Virus record (IMG/VR): IMGVR_UViG_3300043427_003768
Coordinates: 1 to 20,114 of that record
DNA length: 20,114 bases
Direction: 5' to 3' (one strand)
Source of the DNA: a virus
The notes under the pieces are model-generated. The model made no database searches, was not told the origin of the DNA, and saw nothing but the letters and a program-made list of their open reading frames with translations. Position numbers and translations under genes: made by a program. Positions 2,426-19,409 of the stretch are shown in pieces (position 1 is the first letter of the stretch; each line of letters starts with the position of its first letter).

Positions 2426-2821
2426 TTATTTATTTAGACGGAATTTTGCATAAGGTATAGAGAGTAACTCATCCAACTCATTATACTTAACAACATGAAG
2501 TTTTCCTGCAACTTCTTCCCAGGTATATTGTCTTGATTGTCTCCAGTGAAAATTGATTGCTTTGAACCCCCACTTCTGAAGTTCAGTGCAAGCAATCAAA
2601 GGATGTTGATCGTATTCAATTTCTGGTGTCTTTGGATTGTAAATAAAGGTATAAAACTTGCCTGGTTCTGGATATAATACTTCTTCCTTTAGTGCTTCCA
2701 GTATCAGCAACATTAAATCTTCTGGATCGCTGGTTCCACTTTGAGCAATTTTTCTTTTGAGTTCTCTGACTCTTACAGTTGTTGATGCTTTTTCTGCGTA
2801 TTGCCCAAAACCTTCCGCCAT
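2426..2821 (-). CDS. Conserved small phage protein of unknown function
   Basis: This 131-residue protein has no function I can assign. Residues 1-45 are helical and charged (KASTTVRVRELKRKI, then DPEDLMLLILEALKEE). They are followed by PGKFYTFIYNPKTPEIEYDQ and HPLI, and then GFKAINFHWRQSRQYTW. The 'FY.F.Y.PK.....YD..PL' and later 'GF.aiN.H' pattern resembles small phage proteins that often sit among T4-like structural genes. It is therefore probably a virion or assembly protein. Its ATG shares one base with the stop of the upstream homing endonuclease (TAATG), so translation is coupled to it. It lies between gp4 and gp48, in a block otherwise made of head-completion and baseplate genes. Confidence 0.6.
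   Translation of the reverse strand: MAEGFGQYAEKASTTVRVRELKRKIAQSGTSDPEDLMLLILEALKEEVLYPEPGKFYTFIYNPKTPEIEYDQHPLIACTELQKWGFKAINFHWRQSRQYTWEEVAGKLHVVKYNELDELLSIPYAKFRLNK
2427..2434 (-). promoter_or_regulatory. Candidate T4-type late promoter before gp48
   Basis: On the minus strand this reads AATAAATA, a match to the NATAAATA late-promoter element of T4-like cyanophages (T4 consensus TATAAATA, read by gp55/gp33). It overlaps the stop codon of the 131-residue gene and is 18 nt from the gp48 ATG, leaving a short leader of about 12 nt. In AT-rich DNA a chance match is possible. Confidence 0.45.
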
Positions 2822-3474
2822 TATTTGATACTACTAACGAATTTTCCACCTTGCTTGAGAATATAGTATCTGGAAATTCCTGTTTTTTTTATTGCTTCGG
2901 TCATAGATGCATATATCTCTCCATTATAGATAACTGGTTTTTGATTCGGGCTTGGTCTACCTTTCATCATTTCACTATGCCTCTTATGCTTTTCTTTATC
3001 TGTCCTATTTCTTTCTGCCATTTTTTTTAAATTTTCTGCATAGTAAGATATTGGTCTTGGATTATTTTTTAATTTTTCTTTCCAAGTATTTGATAGTTTT
3101 TGTCTTACATTTTCTGGAATTGTTTTTCCTTTTAAACTTTTTTTATTTGCAGCACCTATTTTTGCTCTAACTTCCGGTCTTTTTGTTGGACTATCAGCAC
3201 CATACATTTTAGGTGGAGCATTACCACCATCTGCAATATTCATCAATATACCAGTTCCATCACACTTTTTACCAAAAATATCAATCATATAAATTTCGTG
3301 CTTAAATGCTTCTTCTTCAGTAAGATTTTGTTTTAACTTTATTATTCTACTTCTATCTTTTGGTGGTTTACAATTTTTCCCATACTTATAAAACAGTCTC
3401 TTTCCTTTTCCCTTACCAATATAATAAGGCCTGCCGTCTTCTTTTAGATAGGCGTATGTATAATAAGAACTCAT
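2821..3474 (-). CDS. Free-standing GIY-YIG homing endonuclease
   Basis: This 217-residue protein has the GIY-YIG nuclease signature near its N-terminus. It shows Y5-T-Y7 in the GIY position, Y18-I-G20, the catalytic Arg at R26, metal-binding Glu at E60 and the conserved Asn at N79. From about residue 90 on it has NUMOD3-like basic repeats (SPTKRPEVRAKIGAANKKS; KGKTIPENVRQKLSNTWK). It ends with a NUMOD1-type DNA-recognition helix region (KPVIYNGEIYASMTEAIKKT). The family makes site-specific cuts in related phage genomes to spread its own gene; T4 Seg enzymes are examples. No intron flanks it, so it is free-standing. It sits between gp4 and the 131-residue gene. A perfect TATAAATA lies just upstream. 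All catalytic positions are present, so it is probably active. Confidence 0.9.
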   Translation of the reverse strand: MSSYYTYAYLKEDGRPYYIGKGKGKRLFYKYGKNCKPPKDRSRIIKLKQNLTEEEAFKHEIYMIDIFGKKCDGTGILMNIADGGNAPPKMYGADSPTKRPEVRAKIGAANKKSLKGKTIPENVRQKLSNTWKEKLKNNPRPISYYAENLKKMAERNRTDKEKHKRHSEMMKGRPSPNQKPVIYNGEIYASMTEAIKKTGISRYYILKQGGKFVSSIK

Positions 3475-3505: not shown

Positions 3506-3943
3506 TTAAAAAAGATTATCTTCAGTTATAACTTTAAACTCAAGCATTCTATCCGCACACCATTCTTCTGCTGCTTTCCACTTTGCTTGATTGACTGCAT
3601 AAGTTCTACATTCATGAAGATATGATTTAGTCACTCTTGATCTTTGCTTTGGCGGAAGTGTTTGTTTCTTGGGTTTTACTTCAATTACATAAGTCTTAAT
3701 CTTTCCAGATTCTTCTTTTACTTTAATAAGATAATCTGGAAAGTATCTATGAATTCGGTTATCAATTGGAGACACATATGAAATACAAAATTCCTCTGAT
3801 GCCCAAGAAATTATACTGGGATTATGATCACAATAATAACAAAAGCGTCTCTCCCAACTGCTTCTACAAATGATGTTTGAAGCATCACCTTGATATTTTT
3901 CTGGATAGGATGGTTTGTAGATACTCTTAATACTTTCCGCCAT
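3506..3943 (-). CDS. 4: gp4 head completion protein (PD-(D/E)XK fold)
   Basis: This 145-residue protein matches the length and layout of T4 gp4 (150 residues; also called gp50/gp4). Visible features are CRSSWERRFCYYCDHNPSI with E31, RYFPDYLI with P69-D70, and YVIEVKPKKQ with E88-V-K90. Together these are the E...PD...ExK catalytic set of TnsA-like restriction-endonuclease folds. In T4, gp4 acts after DNA packaging to prepare filled heads for tail joining; its exact chemistry is not settled. It is the first gene of the minus-strand block and has a TATAAATA late promoter 31 nt upstream. A GGA lies 3 nt before the ATG as a weak ribosome-binding site. Confidence 0.9.
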   Translation of the reverse strand: MAESIKSIYKPSYPEKYQGDASNIICRSSWERRFCYYCDHNPSIISWASEEFCISYVSPIDNRIHRYFPDYLIKVKEESGKIKTYVIEVKPKKQTLPPKQRSRVTKSYLHECRTYAVNQAKWKAAEEWCADRMLEFKVITEDNLF

Positions 3944-3982: not shown

Positions 3983-4837
3983 ATGGCTGCATCTGCCCCA
4001 GAAATAAGAACAGTTTCTAAAATTAAAAGTTCTTTATTACAACCAGCACTTACCTCTCACTATGAGTGCTTTTTTGTTATTCCTGGGTTAGTAAACACAT
4101 TTATAAATCAGGGTGGGGTTAAAGAAGCAAGCAAAGAAGAATTATTAATACTATCTTGTAGTGAGGCATCTCTACCTGGTTCTAATCTTGCAACTCACGA
4201 ACTGAATAATGACTTTACGGGAGTAACTCAAAGACACGCATATAGAAGATTGTATGATGATAGAGCAGATTTTACTTTTTATGTAAACAACTCATATTCA
4301 CAAATACTTATTTTTGAGAGATGGATCCAATACATATCTGGTGAACAAAAGACTGGATCTGCAATGCTTAATAATTTTTATAGAGTAAAATATCCTCAAA
4401 AATATAAAGCAGATATTTACCTTACAAAATTTGAAAGAACTGCAAAAGCAAAAACTGGAAAAGGAAAACAAAATGAAACTAACGGTTCTTCATATTCAAG
4501 TCAAAAATTATATTATAGTTTCTACAATGCCTTTCCAATTTCTATAGGATCAATGCCGATTTCTTATGATTCTTCTTCTCTTTTAAAATGTACAGTTTCC
4601 TTTACTTACGACCGTTACCTTTGTAGTTATGAGAAATCAGTTGCAGGAGTGTCCGTAGAACCTCCAGCACCAGCAACTGCTGCTGGAGTTCCTAATCCAT
4701 ATAATCTTACTCCAGAATTCCAAGCAGCTGCGAATGCCGCATACTCTCAAAATTTAAACTTGGGTAATTTTTCAGCAGGGTCCTTAACTAATCCAAATGT
4801 TGATCCATCTATTTTAAACGTTCCATTTTCCAACTAA
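3983..4837 (+). CDS. 54: gp54 baseplate tail-tube initiator
   Basis: This 284-residue protein (T4 gp54 is 320) has a tube-fold pattern. It contains HYECFFVIPGL, a stretch LILSCSEASLPGSNLATHEL, then DFTGVTQRHAYRRLYDDRAD followed by FTFYV, and IFERWIQYISG. The middle has VKYPQKYKADIYLTKFE and the C-terminal part has YSFYNAFPISIGSMPISYD before SLLKCTVSFTYDRY. This 'S.P...' to 'F.NAFP..i...pl.y....l...V.F.Y' plan is characteristic of gp54 and gp19-like tube proteins. In T4, gp54 and gp48 form the platform on which tube polymerisation begins. The last roughly 55 residues are Ala/Pro/Asn-rich and probably flexible. Neither a clear Shine-Dalgarno sequence nor a plus-strand late promoter is visible before the ATG. 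Confidence 0.82.
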   Translation: MAASAPEIRTVSKIKSSLLQPALTSHYECFFVIPGLVNTFINQGGVKEASKEELLILSCSEASLPGSNLATHELNNDFTGVTQRHAYRRLYDDRADFTFYVNNSYSQILIFERWIQYISGEQKTGSAMLNNFYRVKYPQKYKADIYLTKFERTAKAKTGKGKQNETNGSSYSSQKLYYSFYNAFPISIGSMPISYDSSSLLKCTVSFTYDRYLCSYEKSVAGVSVEPPAPATAAGVPNPYNLTPEFQAAANAAYSQNLNLGNFSAGSLTNPNVDPSILNVPFSN

Positions 4838-4866: not shown

Positions 4867-5586
4867 ATGCCTTTACCAAAAATTGCAACTCCAACATATG
4901 AGTTGAAGTTACCATCAACCGGACAAACTATAAAGTATAGACCCTTTCTAGTTAAAGAAGAAAAACTTTTAGTGATTGCATTAGAATCTGAAGATACTAA
5001 ACAGATTACCACTGCAATTAAAACTGTAATTAAAAACTGCATAGAAACTAAAAATATTAAAGTAGAATCATTACCTACTTTTGATATTGAATATTTGTTT
5101 TTGAATATTCGTGGAAAATCTGTGGGCGAAGAAATTGAAGTTAATATTATCTGCCCCGATGACGAAGAAGTATCAGTACCCATCAAAATTAATGTAGATG
5201 ATATTCAAGTTCAAAGAGATGAAAATCATACAAACAAAATTAAACTTGATGAAACTTTAATAATGGAAATGAAATATCCTTCATTAGAACAATTTATTAA
5301 AAATAATTTTGATCTTTCTAATAATAGTGCAATGGAGCAATCTTTTGAACTTGTTGCTTCTTGTGTGGACAAAATTTATAATGAAGAAGAAGTTTGGGCT
5401 GCTGCTGATGTAACTAAAAAAGAGTTAATGGAATTTTTGGATCAAATGAACACTACTCAATTTAAAGAAATTGAAAAGTTCTTTGAGACAATGCCTAAAC
5501 TTTCTCATACAGTAAAGGTAAAAAATCCAAAAACTGAAGTTGAAAGTGAAGTAGTGTTGGAGGGTCTTTCCAGTTTTTTCGCATAG
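4867..5586 (+). CDS. 26: gp26-family baseplate hub assembly protein
   Basis: This 239-residue protein starts with MPLPKIATPTYELKLPSTGQ followed by KYRPFLVKEEKLLVIALES. That N-terminus is the hallmark of the T4 gp26 baseplate family (T4_baseplate; T4 gp26 is 208 residues). Further on are a gp26-like central region (FDIEYLFLNIRGKSVGEEIE) and a helical C-terminal half with ELMEFLDQMNTTQFKEIEKF. T4 gp26 is needed for hub assembly and is present in low amount or absent in the final baseplate, so an assembly-factor role is plausible. AGGAG lies 3 nt before the ATG. The last codons contain a -1 slippery heptamer, so a minority product fused to the next ORF is predicted (see 5559-5623). Confidence 0.85.
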   Translation: MPLPKIATPTYELKLPSTGQTIKYRPFLVKEEKLLVIALESEDTKQITTAIKTVIKNCIETKNIKVESLPTFDIEYLFLNIRGKSVGEEIEVNIICPDDEEVSVPIKINVDDIQVQRDENHTNKIKLDETLIMEMKYPSLEQFIKNNFDLSNNSAMEQSFELVASCVDKIYNEEEVWAAADVTKKELMEFLDQMNTTQFKEIEKFFETMPKLSHTVKVKNPKTEVESEVVLEGLSSFFA

Positions 5587-5623
5587 GAATGAGTCATATG
5601 AACCTGGAGAGTTACTTCAGGTT
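5559..5623 (+). promoter_or_regulatory. Predicted programmed -1 frameshift site joining gp26 to the next ORF
   Basis: The heptamer TTTTTTC at 5574-5580 is phased in the gp26 frame as T TTT TTC, two codons before the TAG. A slip of -1 there reads CGC ATA GGA ATG and continues in the frame of the 60-residue ORF. GGAGG at 5559-5563 ends 10 nt before the heptamer, the spacing of the E. coli dnaX stimulator. Downstream, AACCTGGAG (5601-5609) pairs with CTTCAGGTT (5615-5623) as a 9-bp stem with one G-U pair and a 5-nt loop. The stem starts 20 nt after the heptamer, which is farther than usual. The fusion would have 301 residues (238 from gp26 plus 63). The elements are seen; the frameshift is inferred. 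Confidence 0.7.
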
Positions 5624-5771
5624 AAATTTTTCATTGATGCAGTATCATAAATATTCATTAATGGAAATTGAAAATATGATTCCTTGGGAAAGAGACATTT
5701 ATGTTGAACTTCTCAAGCAACACATAGAGGAAGAAGAGTTCAAACAAAAACAACAAAGTAATGGCTGGTAA
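5589..5771 (+). CDS. Small ORF, probable C-terminal part of a gp26 frameshift fusion (tail-chaperone-like)
   Basis: This 60-residue ORF lies in the -1 frame after gp26, two bases beyond its stop. Its sequence has NLESYFRLNFSLMQYHKYSL and then IENMIPWERDIYVELLKQHI followed by an acidic/glutamine-rich end. A short helical 'mPW.r.iyv.ll...' segment directly before a tape-measure gene is what the second part of lambda-type tail chaperones looks like. It may be translated on its own: the ATG at 5598 has AGGA 9 nt upstream, while the first ATG at 5589 directly abuts the same AGGA. It may also be made as an extension of gp26 by -1 frameshifting. Its last 11 bases overlap the next gene, so coupling to the tape-measure-like protein is likely. 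Confidence 0.65.
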   Translation: MSHMNLESYFRLNFSLMQYHKYSLMEIENMIPWERDIYVELLKQHIEEEEFKQKQQSNGW

Positions 5772-8211
5772 TCCTACTTTACCCACAGAGAATATTGATG
5801 AGGTAATTTTAAGATTACTAGCCTTAGAACCTAATGAAGTTGATGAGATTGATTATCAAACCTATTCTCAATACTTAAAAGAACTTTTAGTTGAAGTTAC
5901 TGCATCAAAGAGAAAAATTGGCGCAATTGAATTTAATTCTTTAAAAGATGAATTCAAAAGAGTAAAAGGAAAAAAAGGAAGATTTAGAATTAAGAAAGCA
6001 AAAATAACTGCAACTGGACTTGGACTTGGTGGTATCAGAAAACAAGTCAAGGCAGCACAGAATAGATTGATGCTTGCTCCGGTTGGAGGAGTTCCAAAGT
6101 TACAAGAAAAGATTGAAACTATATCTCAAGGGACAAAGGAAAATCCTTTGCTTAAAATTAGTAAGACGCTTGATTCTATTTTAAATACTCTTATTGATAT
6201 TGGAAAACAAGATGCAAAAGAAAAAGAAAAAAACAGACGTAGTGAAGAAGAGAAAAAAAGAACAGGAAGAGAAAGTAGTTTAGAATCAAAAACTTTTGAT
6301 GGTCTTAAGAAAGCAATTTCTAGCGTTATTAAACCATTTCAATCTATATGGGATAAGATCGTTAATTTTATCTTTTATACTTTCCTTGGTAGAGTAGTTG
6401 TAAAATTATTTGATTGGTTTAGTAACAAAGAAAATCAGGATAAAGTTAAATCACTTATTCGTTTTATTAAAGATTGGTGGCCTGCTCTTCTTGGATCTTA
6501 TATTTTATTTGGAACTAAATTTGGTGGACTAATTCGTTTCGTTGGTGGTTGGGCTGTAAGACTTGCATTTCAATTGGGTAAGGTAGTAATACCAAAACTC
6601 CTAACATTAATTGCTAAAAATCCTTTTGCTGCTTTAGCAGTTGCAGGTGGAATTGGTGCTTATGCAGCAACTCAACAAAATAAAGAAAGAAGAGATGAAT
6701 TTGCGGAAACAGATTCTAGCATCGTAAAACCAGAAGAGACCGCTGAAACTGGAAAAGGACCTGGACCTCTTCAACTTCAACAAGAACAAATAGGTCAACA
6801 AGGACTTGGATTAGGTTTTAGTGGTGGTGGTATAGTAAGATTACCTGCTTTTGCTGGGGGTGGATTTAATTTCAAAAATATGATGGGCGGTGTATTTGGT
6901 TCTGGAAAATCACAAGAAATGTTCAGTGGTTTTGTAAATGGACCCGGTGGACCAAAAGGTGATAAAATCCCGGCAATGCTTTCTGACGGAGAATTTGTAA
7001 TGTCTGCGGGAGCAGTTCAAAAGTATGGTGTAGATACTCTTGAGGGCATGAATGCTGCTGGTGGTGGAACAAATAAACCAAAAGTTGTTAGTGGAACTAC
7101 TTATGCTGCTGGTGGTGGATATATTGGACCTCAAGATGATACAAAAGAAAAAGTTAAAGATCCAATTTTAGAAAAAAGAAAGAATACTGAAGAATCGTTT
7201 AAATGGAATCCAAATAAAAATGTAATTGCTTCCAAAAATGGTGAACTTGGTATTATGACTAAAGGTGATCCAAGTTCTTGGAGAAAACCATCATATAATG
7301 AAAAGGGAGAGGTTCCCATCTCCAGTATAAATGCTTTTGCAAAATCTGCTGCAGGATTAAGATTTACTCAACAAAGAGATGCAAAAAAATCTGCGATTTC
7401 TCCAAATATACCAAAGATAATTCCAACACCAAAACCAACAGGAATGAGATACACTCCATACCAATCTCGTTTTGCTGGTGCTCGTGATGCTGCTCACGAA
7501 CGGGCAAAAGGAATTACTGGAGATTCTTCTGCAATAAATCCATATAATCCGATGAATATGTTTAAGATGGGTGGTATTTTTGGTGGTCCAAGAATGCAGG
7601 CAAGAACTGACTACGCTGCATCAAAAGGAAAATATTATTCTTCTTCAGACCAAAAAACCTATGGAAACTATAATGATGCCCAAGCAGCTAAAAAATCTAG
7701 AATGACTTCGCTTGCATCACAACAAAGATTAGATAAATTGAGTTCTGCTGGTGCAAATAGATCTTCAAGAGGTGTAAGATTTGATGCTGAAGCGAAAGCA
7801 AGAAATAAAGACTTTTCACAGAGAGGTGGTCTTTTAGGACAAATGGGTAGAGGTTTTACTCGAATGTTTGGATCAGGAGATCAAATTCAAAAATTGGATC
7901 AGCAAGATAAATCTGCAAATATTGCTACAAAACAAGCAGGCGCTGCTTCTATTGGTAGATATTATTCATCTTCTGATGGAAAGTACTATAAAGATTATAA
8001 CGCAGCTGTGGTTGCAAAAAAACAAAGACTAAAATCTGGAGTAAAACCATTACCAAAATCAAAACCAAAATATAATCCTGCTGGTGGTGGTATGGGCGGA
8101 GGAAGAGGTAGTGGAGCAAAACCAAGTGCAACACAAAAAGCACCAAGTCCATCACCAAGACATAGAGCAGGAACAAGAAGTACAGAAAGAACAACGGGGA
8201 CTAACAGATAA
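5761..8211 (+). CDS. Tape-measure-like virion protein, first copy
   Basis: This 816-residue protein has no enzyme domain that I recognise. Residues 1-130 are basic and helical. Residues about 140-175 are charged and coiled-coil-like. Hydrophobic helices follow (IWDKIVNFIFYTFLGRVVV, about 196-215; LLGSYILFGTKFGGLIRF, about 242-260; NPFAALAVAGGIGAYAAT, about 286-303). At 394-425 is a GPGGPKGDKIPAMLSDGEFV motif, common in phage tape-measure and related tail proteins. The C-terminal half is Gly/Lys/Ser-rich, and a module beginning YYSSSD is present twice (about 623-649 and 732-758). Position after gp26 and the chaperone-like ORF supports a tape-measure or T4 gp29-analogue role, which fixes tail length and leaves during infection. 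The ATG overlaps the previous stop by 11 nt with no nearby Shine-Dalgarno sequence, suggesting coupling. Confidence 0.6.
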   Translation: MAGNPTLPTENIDEVILRLLALEPNEVDEIDYQTYSQYLKELLVEVTASKRKIGAIEFNSLKDEFKRVKGKKGRFRIKKAKITATGLGLGGIRKQVKAAQNRLMLAPVGGVPKLQEKIETISQGTKENPLLKISKTLDSILNTLIDIGKQDAKEKEKNRRSEEEKKRTGRESSLESKTFDGLKKAISSVIKPFQSIWDKIVNFIFYTFLGRVVVKLFDWFSNKENQDKVKSLIRFIKDWWPALLGSYILFGTKFGGLIRFVGGWAVRLAFQLGKVVIPKLLTLIAKNPFAALAVAGGIGAYAATQQNKERRDEFAETDSSIVKPEETAETGKGPGPLQLQQEQIGQQGLGLGFSGGGIVRLPAFAGGGFNFKNMMGGVFGSGKSQEMFSGFVNGPGGPKGDKIPAMLSDGEFVMSAGAVQKYGVDTLEGMNAAGGGTNKPKVVSGTTYAAGGGYIGPQDDTKEKVKDPILEKRKNTEESFKWNPNKNVIASKNGELGIMTKGDPSSWRKPSYNEKGEVPISSINAFAKSAAGLRFTQQRDAKKSAISPNIPKIIPTPKPTGMRYTPYQSRFAGARDAAHERAKGITGDSSAINPYNPMNMFKMGGIFGGPRMQARTDYAASKGKYYSSSDQKTYGNYNDAQAAKKSRMTSLASQQRLDKLSSAGANRSSRGVRFDAEAKARNKDFSQRGGLLGQMGRGFTRMFGSGDQIQKLDQQDKSANIATKQAGAASIGRYYSSSDGKYYKDYNAAVVAKKQRLKSGVKPLPKSKPKYNPAGGGMGGGRGSGAKPSATQKAPSPSPRHRAGTRSTERTTGTNR
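7627..8037 (+). repeat. Two copies of a YYSSSD module in the 816-residue protein
   Basis: Residues about 623-649 and 732-758 of the first tape-measure-like protein share GKYYSSSDQKTYGNYNDAQA-like and GRYYSSSDGKYYKDYNAAVV-like sequences, each ending in AKK.R. The two copies are about 330 bp apart and diverged at DNA level, so they are an old duplication rather than a recent slippage event. Confidence 0.7.
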
Positions 8212-14932: not shown

Positions 14933-16183
14933 ATGATATCAACATCCATACCATTCCAAGACGCTATTAAGTTATCTTTCTTTGATACTGATGGAAAGAA
15001 AGTAGATGGATTAACTGTAGAACAAGCTAAAAAACTTTCGGAGTTAGATAGTAGTAGATTATTTTACTTTAAAACTGGTGATGGAACAGAAAAAGAATTA
15101 ACAATTGATCAAGTTAAAAAATTAACTCCACAAAAAGATTTACTACCATCATCAAATTGTTCTACTGGTCCCGTTGCTTGTGGCCCACCTCTTGTTAGAT
15201 TTTTTGGTGGGGATGGATTTGGTGCAGCAGCGAATGCAGTAATCAGTCCAATTTCATCATCAGTTATTGGATTTGATATTGTAAACGCAGGTAAAGGATT
15301 TAAATTCCCACCAAATGCAGAACTTATAGATCCTTGTGGAAAAGGTTCTGGAAGTTATGTAACTGTAAATGTGGAACCTGATGACTTCTCTATTGATGCA
15401 ACTGGAGTAACTGCAGCGGCGACTGGAGTAACTGCAGCGGCGACTGGAGTAACTGCAGCGGCGACTGGAGGAGGTACAAGACCTAGAGGTACAAGACCTA
15501 CAACATATAAAATTAAAAATATTACGGTTGTTGCTCCTGGTGATGGATACTTGGCTGCACCAGACGGAAGTTTGGGTGGAAATGAAAGAGTATGGAAAGA
15601 ACCTGATGATGGATATGTAAGAACTATAGATGGAAGTTATTATGTTGTGCAACCTTATCGTCCAATTCAAGCAAGAAAGGGAAGCACATATTATCCACCT
15701 GATGGACCCTCAAGAGTTTTGGAAGAGGATGAAGTTATTACTTTACCTTTAGTACCAGCAAAAGCACCAGACACTACAGTTGTTGGAACTACTTATCCAG
15801 TTCTATTGTGTATTGAAGAAATTAAAATATTAGACCAAGGTTTTGGATATAGACCTGGAGATCAACTAATCATTACTCCCGATAACGGAACAAAAACTGA
15901 ACTTGAGATTGATGAATTTGGTCAAATTACTGGAGTAAAAATTTTAAGCGGTGGTTGCGGATATAATGATTTCCCCGACATTAGAACTAATTCTCCAACT
16001 GGTTTTAATGCAACGTTTTCACCAATTTTTAAAGTAACAAAGATAGAAGATGTAGGTCCAGAAGGACCAATTATCGCTCCAGAAGGACCATTTGTCGTCC
16101 CTGATGGTGCTAATATAATTAGTGTAGTGGATTGTGTTGGTAAAATTTCACCAAAAAGAGAATTTGATATTGTACCGAGGTAA
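14933..16183 (+). CDS. Virion structural protein with repeated beta motifs
   Basis: I do not recognise a named family for this 416-residue protein. Residues 1-70 hold two related segments (DGKKVDGLTVEQAKKLSELD and DGTEKELTIDQVKKLTP). Further on, a short beta motif recurs: FDIVNAGKGFKFPPNAEL, ITVVAPGDGYLAAP, IKILDQGFGYRPGDQL and VKILSGGCGYNDFPD. This 'i..v..g.Gy..pp...i' unit is common in cyanophage structural proteins. Residues about 156-190 are made by tandem DNA repeats (TGVTAAA x3, GTRP x2). The gene sits between the gp5-like protein and its likely beta-helix partner, so it is probably part of the spike or central baseplate. Confidence 0.6.
   Translation: MISTSIPFQDAIKLSFFDTDGKKVDGLTVEQAKKLSELDSSRLFYFKTGDGTEKELTIDQVKKLTPQKDLLPSSNCSTGPVACGPPLVRFFGGDGFGAAANAVISPISSSVIGFDIVNAGKGFKFPPNAELIDPCGKGSGSYVTVNVEPDDFSIDATGVTAAATGVTAAATGVTAAATGGGTRPRGTRPTTYKIKNITVVAPGDGYLAAPDGSLGGNERVWKEPDDGYVRTIDGSYYVVQPYRPIQARKGSTYYPPDGPSRVLEEDEVITLPLVPAKAPDTTVVGTTYPVLLCIEEIKILDQGFGYRPGDQLIITPDNGTKTELEIDEFGQITGVKILSGGCGYNDFPDIRTNSPTGFNATFSPIFKVTKIEDVGPEGPIIAPEGPFVVPDGANIISVVDCVGKISPKREFDIVPR
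15401..15470 (+). repeat. In-frame 21-bp tandem repeat, 3.3 copies
   Basis: The unit ACTGGAGTAACTGCAGCGGC plus G is present three times without any change (15401-15421, 15422-15442, 15443-15463), followed by 7 bases of a fourth copy. It encodes TGVTAAA three times. Perfect identity points to recent slippage or duplication. The GC-rich core stands out from the AT-rich surroundings. Confidence 0.95.
15471..15500 (+). repeat. In-frame 15-bp tandem repeat, 2 copies
   Basis: GAGGTACAAGACCTA occurs twice back to back (15471-15485 and 15486-15500), directly after the 21-bp array. It encodes GTRPR followed by GTRPT. Confidence 0.95.
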
Positions 16184-18926: not shown

Positions 18927-19010
18927 GGGAGCGTGGTGGAATCGGTAGACACACCAGACTTAAAATCTGTTGGGCGTATGCCCGTGCGAGTTCAAGTCTC
19001 GCCGCTCCTA
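18927..19010 (+). tRNA. tRNA-Leu (UAA)
   Basis: The acceptor strand GGGAGCG pairs with CGCTCCT (19003-19009, one G-U), with A as discriminator. The anticodon loop CTTAAAA (18959-18965) gives anticodon UAA. The long variable arm (GGGC-GTAT-GCCC) is the class II mark of Leu. The T-arm is GCGAG-TTCAAGT-CTCGC. The top pair of the anticodon stem is a C-U mismatch. No CCA is encoded. UUA-rich phage genes would gain from such a tRNA. Confidence 0.95.
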
Positions 19011-19015
19011 CTTAG

Positions 19016-19337: not shown

Positions 19338-19409
19338 GCCCTTGTAGCTCAGTGGTAGAGCAACGGTTTTGTAAACCGTTGGTCGCTGGTTCAAATCCAG
19401 TCGGGGGCT
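19338..19409 (+). tRNA. tRNA-Thr (UGU)
   Basis: The acceptor strand GCCCTTG pairs with CGGGGGC (19402-19408, with two G-U pairs). The D-arm GCTC-AGTGGTA-GAGC and anticodon stem ACGGT/ACCGT are intact. The anticodon loop TTTGTAA gives UGU. The T-arm is CTGG-TTCAAAT-CCAG. The discriminator is T and no CCA is encoded. Confidence 0.95.

Follow-up and report, generated by a model that had tools for sequence, protein, structure and literature searches.

The window analysed here is a 20,114-nt stretch of DNA from an ocean cyanophage (IMG/VR virus record IMGVR_UViG_3300043427_003768, positions 1 to 20,114). Profile matches from Pfam and PHROG place four genes of its tail locus in the order tail tube, gp26, gp51 and tape-measure-like gene. 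The features of the locus are the following, where TAC stands for tail assembly chaperone and SD for Shine-Dalgarno.

3983..4837, plus strand: tail-tube-like gene (Pfam PF23849 Phage_TTP_2, E 9.7e-13; PHROG 45 tail tube, E 6.6e-32)
4867..5586, plus strand: gp26, predicted TAC-N, 239 aa (Pfam T4_baseplate PF12322, E 1.8e-75; PHROG 150, E 8.7e-82)
5559..5563, plus strand: GGAGG, predicted SD-like stimulator 10 nt upstream of the heptamer (from the sequence and from relatives)
5574..5580, plus strand: slippery heptamer T TTT TTC in the phase of gp26 (from the sequence and its conservation in relatives)
5580..5771, plus strand: extension in the -1 frame, predicted TAC-C of a 301-aa fusion, in which the slip is followed by 63 residues (R-I-G plus gp51)
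5584..5586, plus strand: gp26 stop codon TAG (from the sequence)
5588..5635, plus strand: predicted 3' RNA structure, a 6-bp stem (5588-5593/5630-5635) around a 9-bp hairpin (5601-5609/5615-5623)
5589..5771, plus strand: gp51-family ORF, 60 aa (PHROG 634 baseplate hub assembly catalyst, E 2.9e-27)
5761..8211, plus strand: tape-measure-like gene, 816 aa (weak matches to a number of tape-measure families in PHROG, E 6.2e-9 at best; otherwise position)

The gp26 of the window aligns with T4 gp26 over 203 columns (hhalign E 1.6e-20). The gp51-family identity of the 60-aa ORF, which an earlier sequence-only reading of this DNA had missed, comes from PHROG 634, the direct comparison with T4 gp51 being weak (hhalign E 0.0047); the same ORF also matches the last 40 columns (241-280) of PHROG 150, the family of gp26. 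As that reading had noted, the end of the 60-aa ORF (5771) is overlapped by the tape-measure-like gene, which starts at 5761. The location of gp26 between apparent tail tube and tape measure genes supports the interpretation developed below, with the identity of the tape measure gene judged from weak profile matches and position.

Upstream of the tail tube gene, on the minus strand, the head completion protein gp4 (3506-3943) matches PF08722, the N-terminal domain of TnsA-like endonucleases (E 2.7e-23). In S-SM2 gp4 directly adjoins a 131-aa ORF; in the window the two are separated by an inserted 217-aa ORF (2821-3474, minus strand) that by eye resembles a GIY-YIG homing endonuclease (YTYAYL...YYIGKGKGKR) and had no match in Pfam. 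The window also contains genes for tRNA-Leu(taa) at 18927-19011 and tRNA-Thr(tgt) at 19338-19409, and the protein encoded by the ORF at 14933-16183 contains short tandem copies of ATGVTAA.

The 3' end of gp26 reads GTG TTG GAG GGT CTT TCC AGT TTT TTC GCA TAG. The heptamer is thus in phase, with TTT (5575-5577) as the P-site codon and TTC (5578-5580) as the A-site codon, followed by GCA and the stop codon. Read in the -1 frame from there, the sequence continues as ...S-F-F-R-I-G-M-S-H-M... into the 60-residue ORF, giving 238 + 63 = 301 residues, in agreement with the coordinates, the phase, the fusion and its length proposed in the sequence-only reading. An in-phase T TTT TTN is found at 2 of 5,854 codon positions across the genes of the window. 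Under the codon usage of this genome S-F-F would nevertheless be written T TTT TTY about 54% of the time, so that one genome alone proves nothing against a chance origin of the heptamer in AT-rich DNA encoding an S-F-F C-terminus. The window by itself would also allow ordinary termination and reinitiation to yield gp51 as a short protein of its own, with the T run merely coding. One ATG (5589) lies 2 nt past the gp26 stop codon, one base back in frame, and a second (5598) has AGGA (5585-5588) 9 nt upstream, overlapping the stop codon.

To evaluate these possibilities we collected related loci from IMG/VR using gp26 of the window, S-PM2, Melnitz, ValKK3, Salmonella PLL1 and AsFcp_4 as queries, and added named phages. 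The comparisons use 193 distinct Kyanoviridae-type junctions and a set of 70 non-redundant loci; the junctions are related by descent, and counts among them are not phylogenetically independent. All 193 junctions contain T TTT TTN in the phase of gp26, ending in TTC (159), TTA (19), TTT (14) or TTG (1), at a distance of 0 or 1 codon (0 or 3 nt) from the gp26 stop codon. The conservation of heptamer and phase, proposed earlier as a check, thus extends to every junction. The stop codon is TAG in 133, TAA in 46 and TGA in 14 junctions, and the flanking codons vary as well. The codon before TTT TTN always ends in T (AGT, TCT, AAT, GAT, GGT or GCT) even where the encoded residue changes, so that the base is kept and the amino acid is not. 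The first phenylalanine of the slip site is encoded by TTT in 193/193 junctions, compared with 38-94% TTT in other conserved phenylalanine columns, and the second by TTC in 159 of 173, although TTC accounts for 30% of phenylalanine codons in these genes. By these sequence comparisons the synonymous choice is fixed at the slip site only. Elsewhere in the related gp26 genes T TTT TT occurs in phase at 3 of 14,000 codon positions.

A chance origin is ruled out by these data. The heptamer persists in 193/193 junctions with a varying residue before the two phenylalanines and with TTT as the invariant first phenylalanine codon, the -1 frame leads into gp51 without a stop in every case, and the probability of the pattern under codon usage is 10^-21.5 for the 70 non-redundant loci, if they were independent; we regard coincidence as negligible. 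Slippage of the RNA polymerase on the T run, yielding some mRNAs in the -1 frame, could in principle exploit a run of six T (seven in 14 of 193). In bacteria the usual run length for transcriptional slippage is 8-9, and a six-T run below that length argues against it. In 179 of 193 junctions a base other than T ends the run after exactly six T, and the phase, an SD-like element at the dnaX spacing and a 3' structure are needs of a ribosomal shift. Transcriptional slippage is consequently a highly improbable explanation.

The reading frame downstream of the heptamer bears on reinitiation. The -1 frame remains open for 61-69 codons from the heptamer in 70/70 non-redundant loci. An ATG is present between the gp26 stop codon and the conserved gp51 core in 131 of 193 relatives, and the cyanophage database records consulted show gp26 and gp51 as two genes, or omit gp51; both the retained ATG and the separate annotation speak for reinitiation. 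Against it, 48 of the 193 junctions lack ATG, GTG and TTG in the -1 frame ahead of the core, and a further 14 offer GTG or TTG only; the gp51 part cannot come from an ordinary start there. In Melnitz, for example, the -1 frame reads FFLIALSHNSLENYFKTNFALM and the first methionine falls within the core. In ACG-2014b and ACG-2014d the gp51-like frame is there, yet no gp51 gene is annotated in public records.

The codons between the gp26 stop codon and the usual ATG are informative as well. Differences between nearest neighbours number 61, 42 and 117 at the first, second and third positions of -1-frame codons, respectively, and in the 30 loci where ATG occurs at codon 8 only, the preceding codon always encodes histidine (CAT 22, CAC 8). 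Judged by this substitution pattern, the -1 frame is already under protein-coding selection ahead of the usual ATG, and for selection on those codons a plain start codon is no explanation. Reinitiation also leaves the fixation of NNT TTT TTN unexplained, and as the sole source of gp51 we consider it quite improbable.

Both processes might operate together, with the frameshift producing the fusion and reinitiation supplying some free gp51 in lineages that keep the ATG. The ATG retained in 131 of 193 relatives and the SD-like AGGA overlapping the gp26 stop codon in the window are in keeping with such a combination. However, codon 5 of the -1 frame is leucine or methionine, with ATG in 93 of 193, and codon 8 is methionine in 74 of 193, a pattern of drifting ordinary residues rather than of a conserved start, and the combination appears unlikely. 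Its specific form, in which lineages of the window type would have three products because some gp51 started at the ATG at 5598 is added to gp26 and the fusion, is likewise unlikely.

Elements that could stimulate a shift flank the heptamer on both sides. The GGAGG 10 nt upstream, pointed out in the sequence-only reading together with the suggestion that its conservation be examined, lies at 5559-5563, and an SD-like 4-mer occupies the same position in 67 of 70 non-redundant loci, compared with 0-3 of 70 at three control places. In the relatives the predicted energy of pairing with the anti-SD sequence reaches a single narrow minimum at positions -16/-15 relative to the heptamer. The glutamate codon that forms the element favours GAG (38:28 compared with 349:852; p = 3.3e-6).

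Downstream, the predicted fold of the 60 nt at 5581-5640 has an energy of -17.5 kcal/mol (z = -3.2 relative to shuffled sequences). The 9-bp hairpin noted earlier does exist, at 5601-5609/5615-5623, but its importance was over-read, as it starts 20 nt past the heptamer and its exact form is not conserved. With that spacing the bare hairpin is doubtful as a stimulator; the enclosing 6-bp stem, which begins 7 nt past the heptamer, fits better. Among relatives the mean folding z in the 50 nt after the heptamer is -1.55, compared with about -0.2 in the flanks, and the value right after the heptamer differs by group, being -3.06 in the S-PM2 group and near zero (-0.13) in the Melnitz group. The spacing and form of the 3' structure differ between lineages. 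A search for a single covarying fold with RNAalifold gave only a 4-bp hairpin (-1.47 kcal/mol) among close relatives and none across groups, and we rejected the notion of one conserved 3' hairpin, although single sequences fold better than their shuffled versions.

The same arrangement extends beyond cyanophages to other families and to several genus-level T4-like groups. The heptamer is T TTT TTC or T TTT TTT in the Aeromonas and Vibrio Straboviridae (AsFcp_4, AS-zj, Aeh1 and ValKK3), Menderavirus, Busanvirus, Otagovirus, pf16 and phiM19; in Pootjesviridae it is T TTT TTG. In Aeh1 (AY266303) the heptamer is T TTT TTC and is followed by a gp51-like frame -1 to gp26. Ackermannviridae, represented by 23 loci, present a separate case. 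Their gp51-like ORF is also -1 to gp26, mostly without ATG, GTG or TTG near its beginning, and the T6 heptamer is absent; the invariant feature is an in-phase T TTC that precedes the gp26 stop codon by one or two codons. It is a candidate non-canonical -1 site (U UUC), or the two parts may be joined in another way.

T4 itself is organised differently. Its genes 26 and 51 are separate and on opposite strands, and the end of gp26 reads TTC TTT, with no slippery run. T4 gp51 (249 aa) matches columns 13-280 of PHROG 150 (E 2.6e-84), compared with columns 14-235 only for T4 gp26, and PHROG 634 matches residues 147-246 of T4 gp51 (E 1.2e-23). From these profile matches, T4 gp51, with a gp26-like part of its own, resembles a single-gene version of the fusion, and T4 gp26 resembles the short form; in the window a frameshift would join what T4 carries in one reading frame.

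The abstract of the 2022 study by Vladimirov reportedly states that frameshifting is conserved in several T4-like groups and that T4 uses separate genes 26 and 51. Although the sequence-only reading knew of no description of such a frameshift for gp26 in T4-like phages, the TAC genes of these phages, the same genes as here, were identified by Vladimirov, Gautam and Davidson (Virology 2022, as cited in PMC12846349), and the 2025 paper PMC12846349 cites poly-T slippery signals in T4-like TAC-N genes as known. T4 was still excepted from the conserved G-T frameshift in a 2016 review (PMC5009743). A report of a cyanophage-specific frameshift was not found in the literature searched. The kind of signal was already reported for T4-like phages in 2022, and the window is a well-supported new example; what is new here is the conservation evidence. 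PMC12846349 also describes TACs of Vandenendeviridae and Andersonviridae that resemble the window in having a poly-T signal (GTTTTT) at the end of TAC-N and a -1 frame open into the C-domain, although these are other phage families with other TAC proteins.

Closer functional models come from lambda and E. coli. In lambda the order V-G-T-H corresponds to tube, TAC and tape measure. The frameshift that produces gpG and gpGT is said to have been described by Levin in 1993 and Xu in 2004. Lambda makes a short and a long chaperone by shifting to the -1 frame close to where the first ORF ends, and the genes lie directly between those for tail tube and tape measure, as is predicted for the window. 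The lambda heptamer is G GGA AAG whereas that of the window is poly-T, the window adds an SD-like element and a predicted 3' structure, and the lambda and window proteins have no recognisable sequence similarity. The -1 site of E. coli dnaX has the heptamer A AAA AAG, preceded at 10 nt by an SD-like element and followed by a stem-loop, for which sites of this type have a spacing of 5-9 nt. The window shares the position of the SD-like element and has a predicted structure after the heptamer, which in relatives varies in spacing and form; gene and heptamer differ.

Structural comparison with known TACs is only suggestive. Among the 50 PDB matches listed by Foldseek for an AlphaFold model (pLDDT 86.4), the HK97 chaperone 2OB9 chain B had the top probability, 0.66, but with E 1.4 and TMq 0.21, and no PDB match reached E <= 0.001. 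A sequence search of the PDB with the gp26 profile returned BRR2 noise only.

With the phase, the conservation, the coding character of the -1 frame and the homology to T4 gp26 and gp51 all obtained from sequence, we consider it very probable (about 0.92) that the gp26-gp51 fusion, as the long form of a tail assembly chaperone, arises through programmed -1 ribosomal frameshifting. Conservation lends strong support to the original proposal of a chaperone of the lambda G/GT type encoded upstream of the tape measure. By analogy with lambda, the best reading of the sequences is a pair in which gp26 would be TAC-N and the frameshift fusion TAC-NC. Most ribosomes would stop at the gp26 TAG and release the 239-aa TAC-N. 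In a minority, the two tRNA-Phe in the P and A sites, paused on TTT TTC, would move back by one base onto TTT TTT, and translation would continue through R-I-G-gp51 to give the 301-aa TAC-NC. Stimulation of the slip, on the model of E. coli dnaX, would come from pairing of GGAGG with 16S rRNA and from the RNA structure downstream. If the parallel with gpG and gpGT holds, the tape measure protein would be coated by the gp26 portion of the fusion, and its gp51 portion would bring in the tail-tube subunit. We infer that slipping occurs, its efficiency and the chaperone role; the function of the fusion is taken from lambda.

A frameshift of this kind may also account for two earlier observations. 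Sullivan et al. (2010; PMC3037559) found that gp51 of cyanophages and marine vibriophages is without the first ~200 residues and that Aeh1 is without gp51. The short gp51 would be explained because the part that it lacks is contributed by gp26 when ribosomes shift, and the reported absence in Aeh1 because the gp51-like frame lies -1 to gp26 behind the heptamer. The annotation of a core tail locus would thereby be settled, where cyanophage records now have two genes or only one. If lineages of the window type do make three products, the set of chaperones would differ between ATG-keeping and ATG-lacking cyanophages. Tail assembly in abundant ocean phages becomes testable with a simple reporter.
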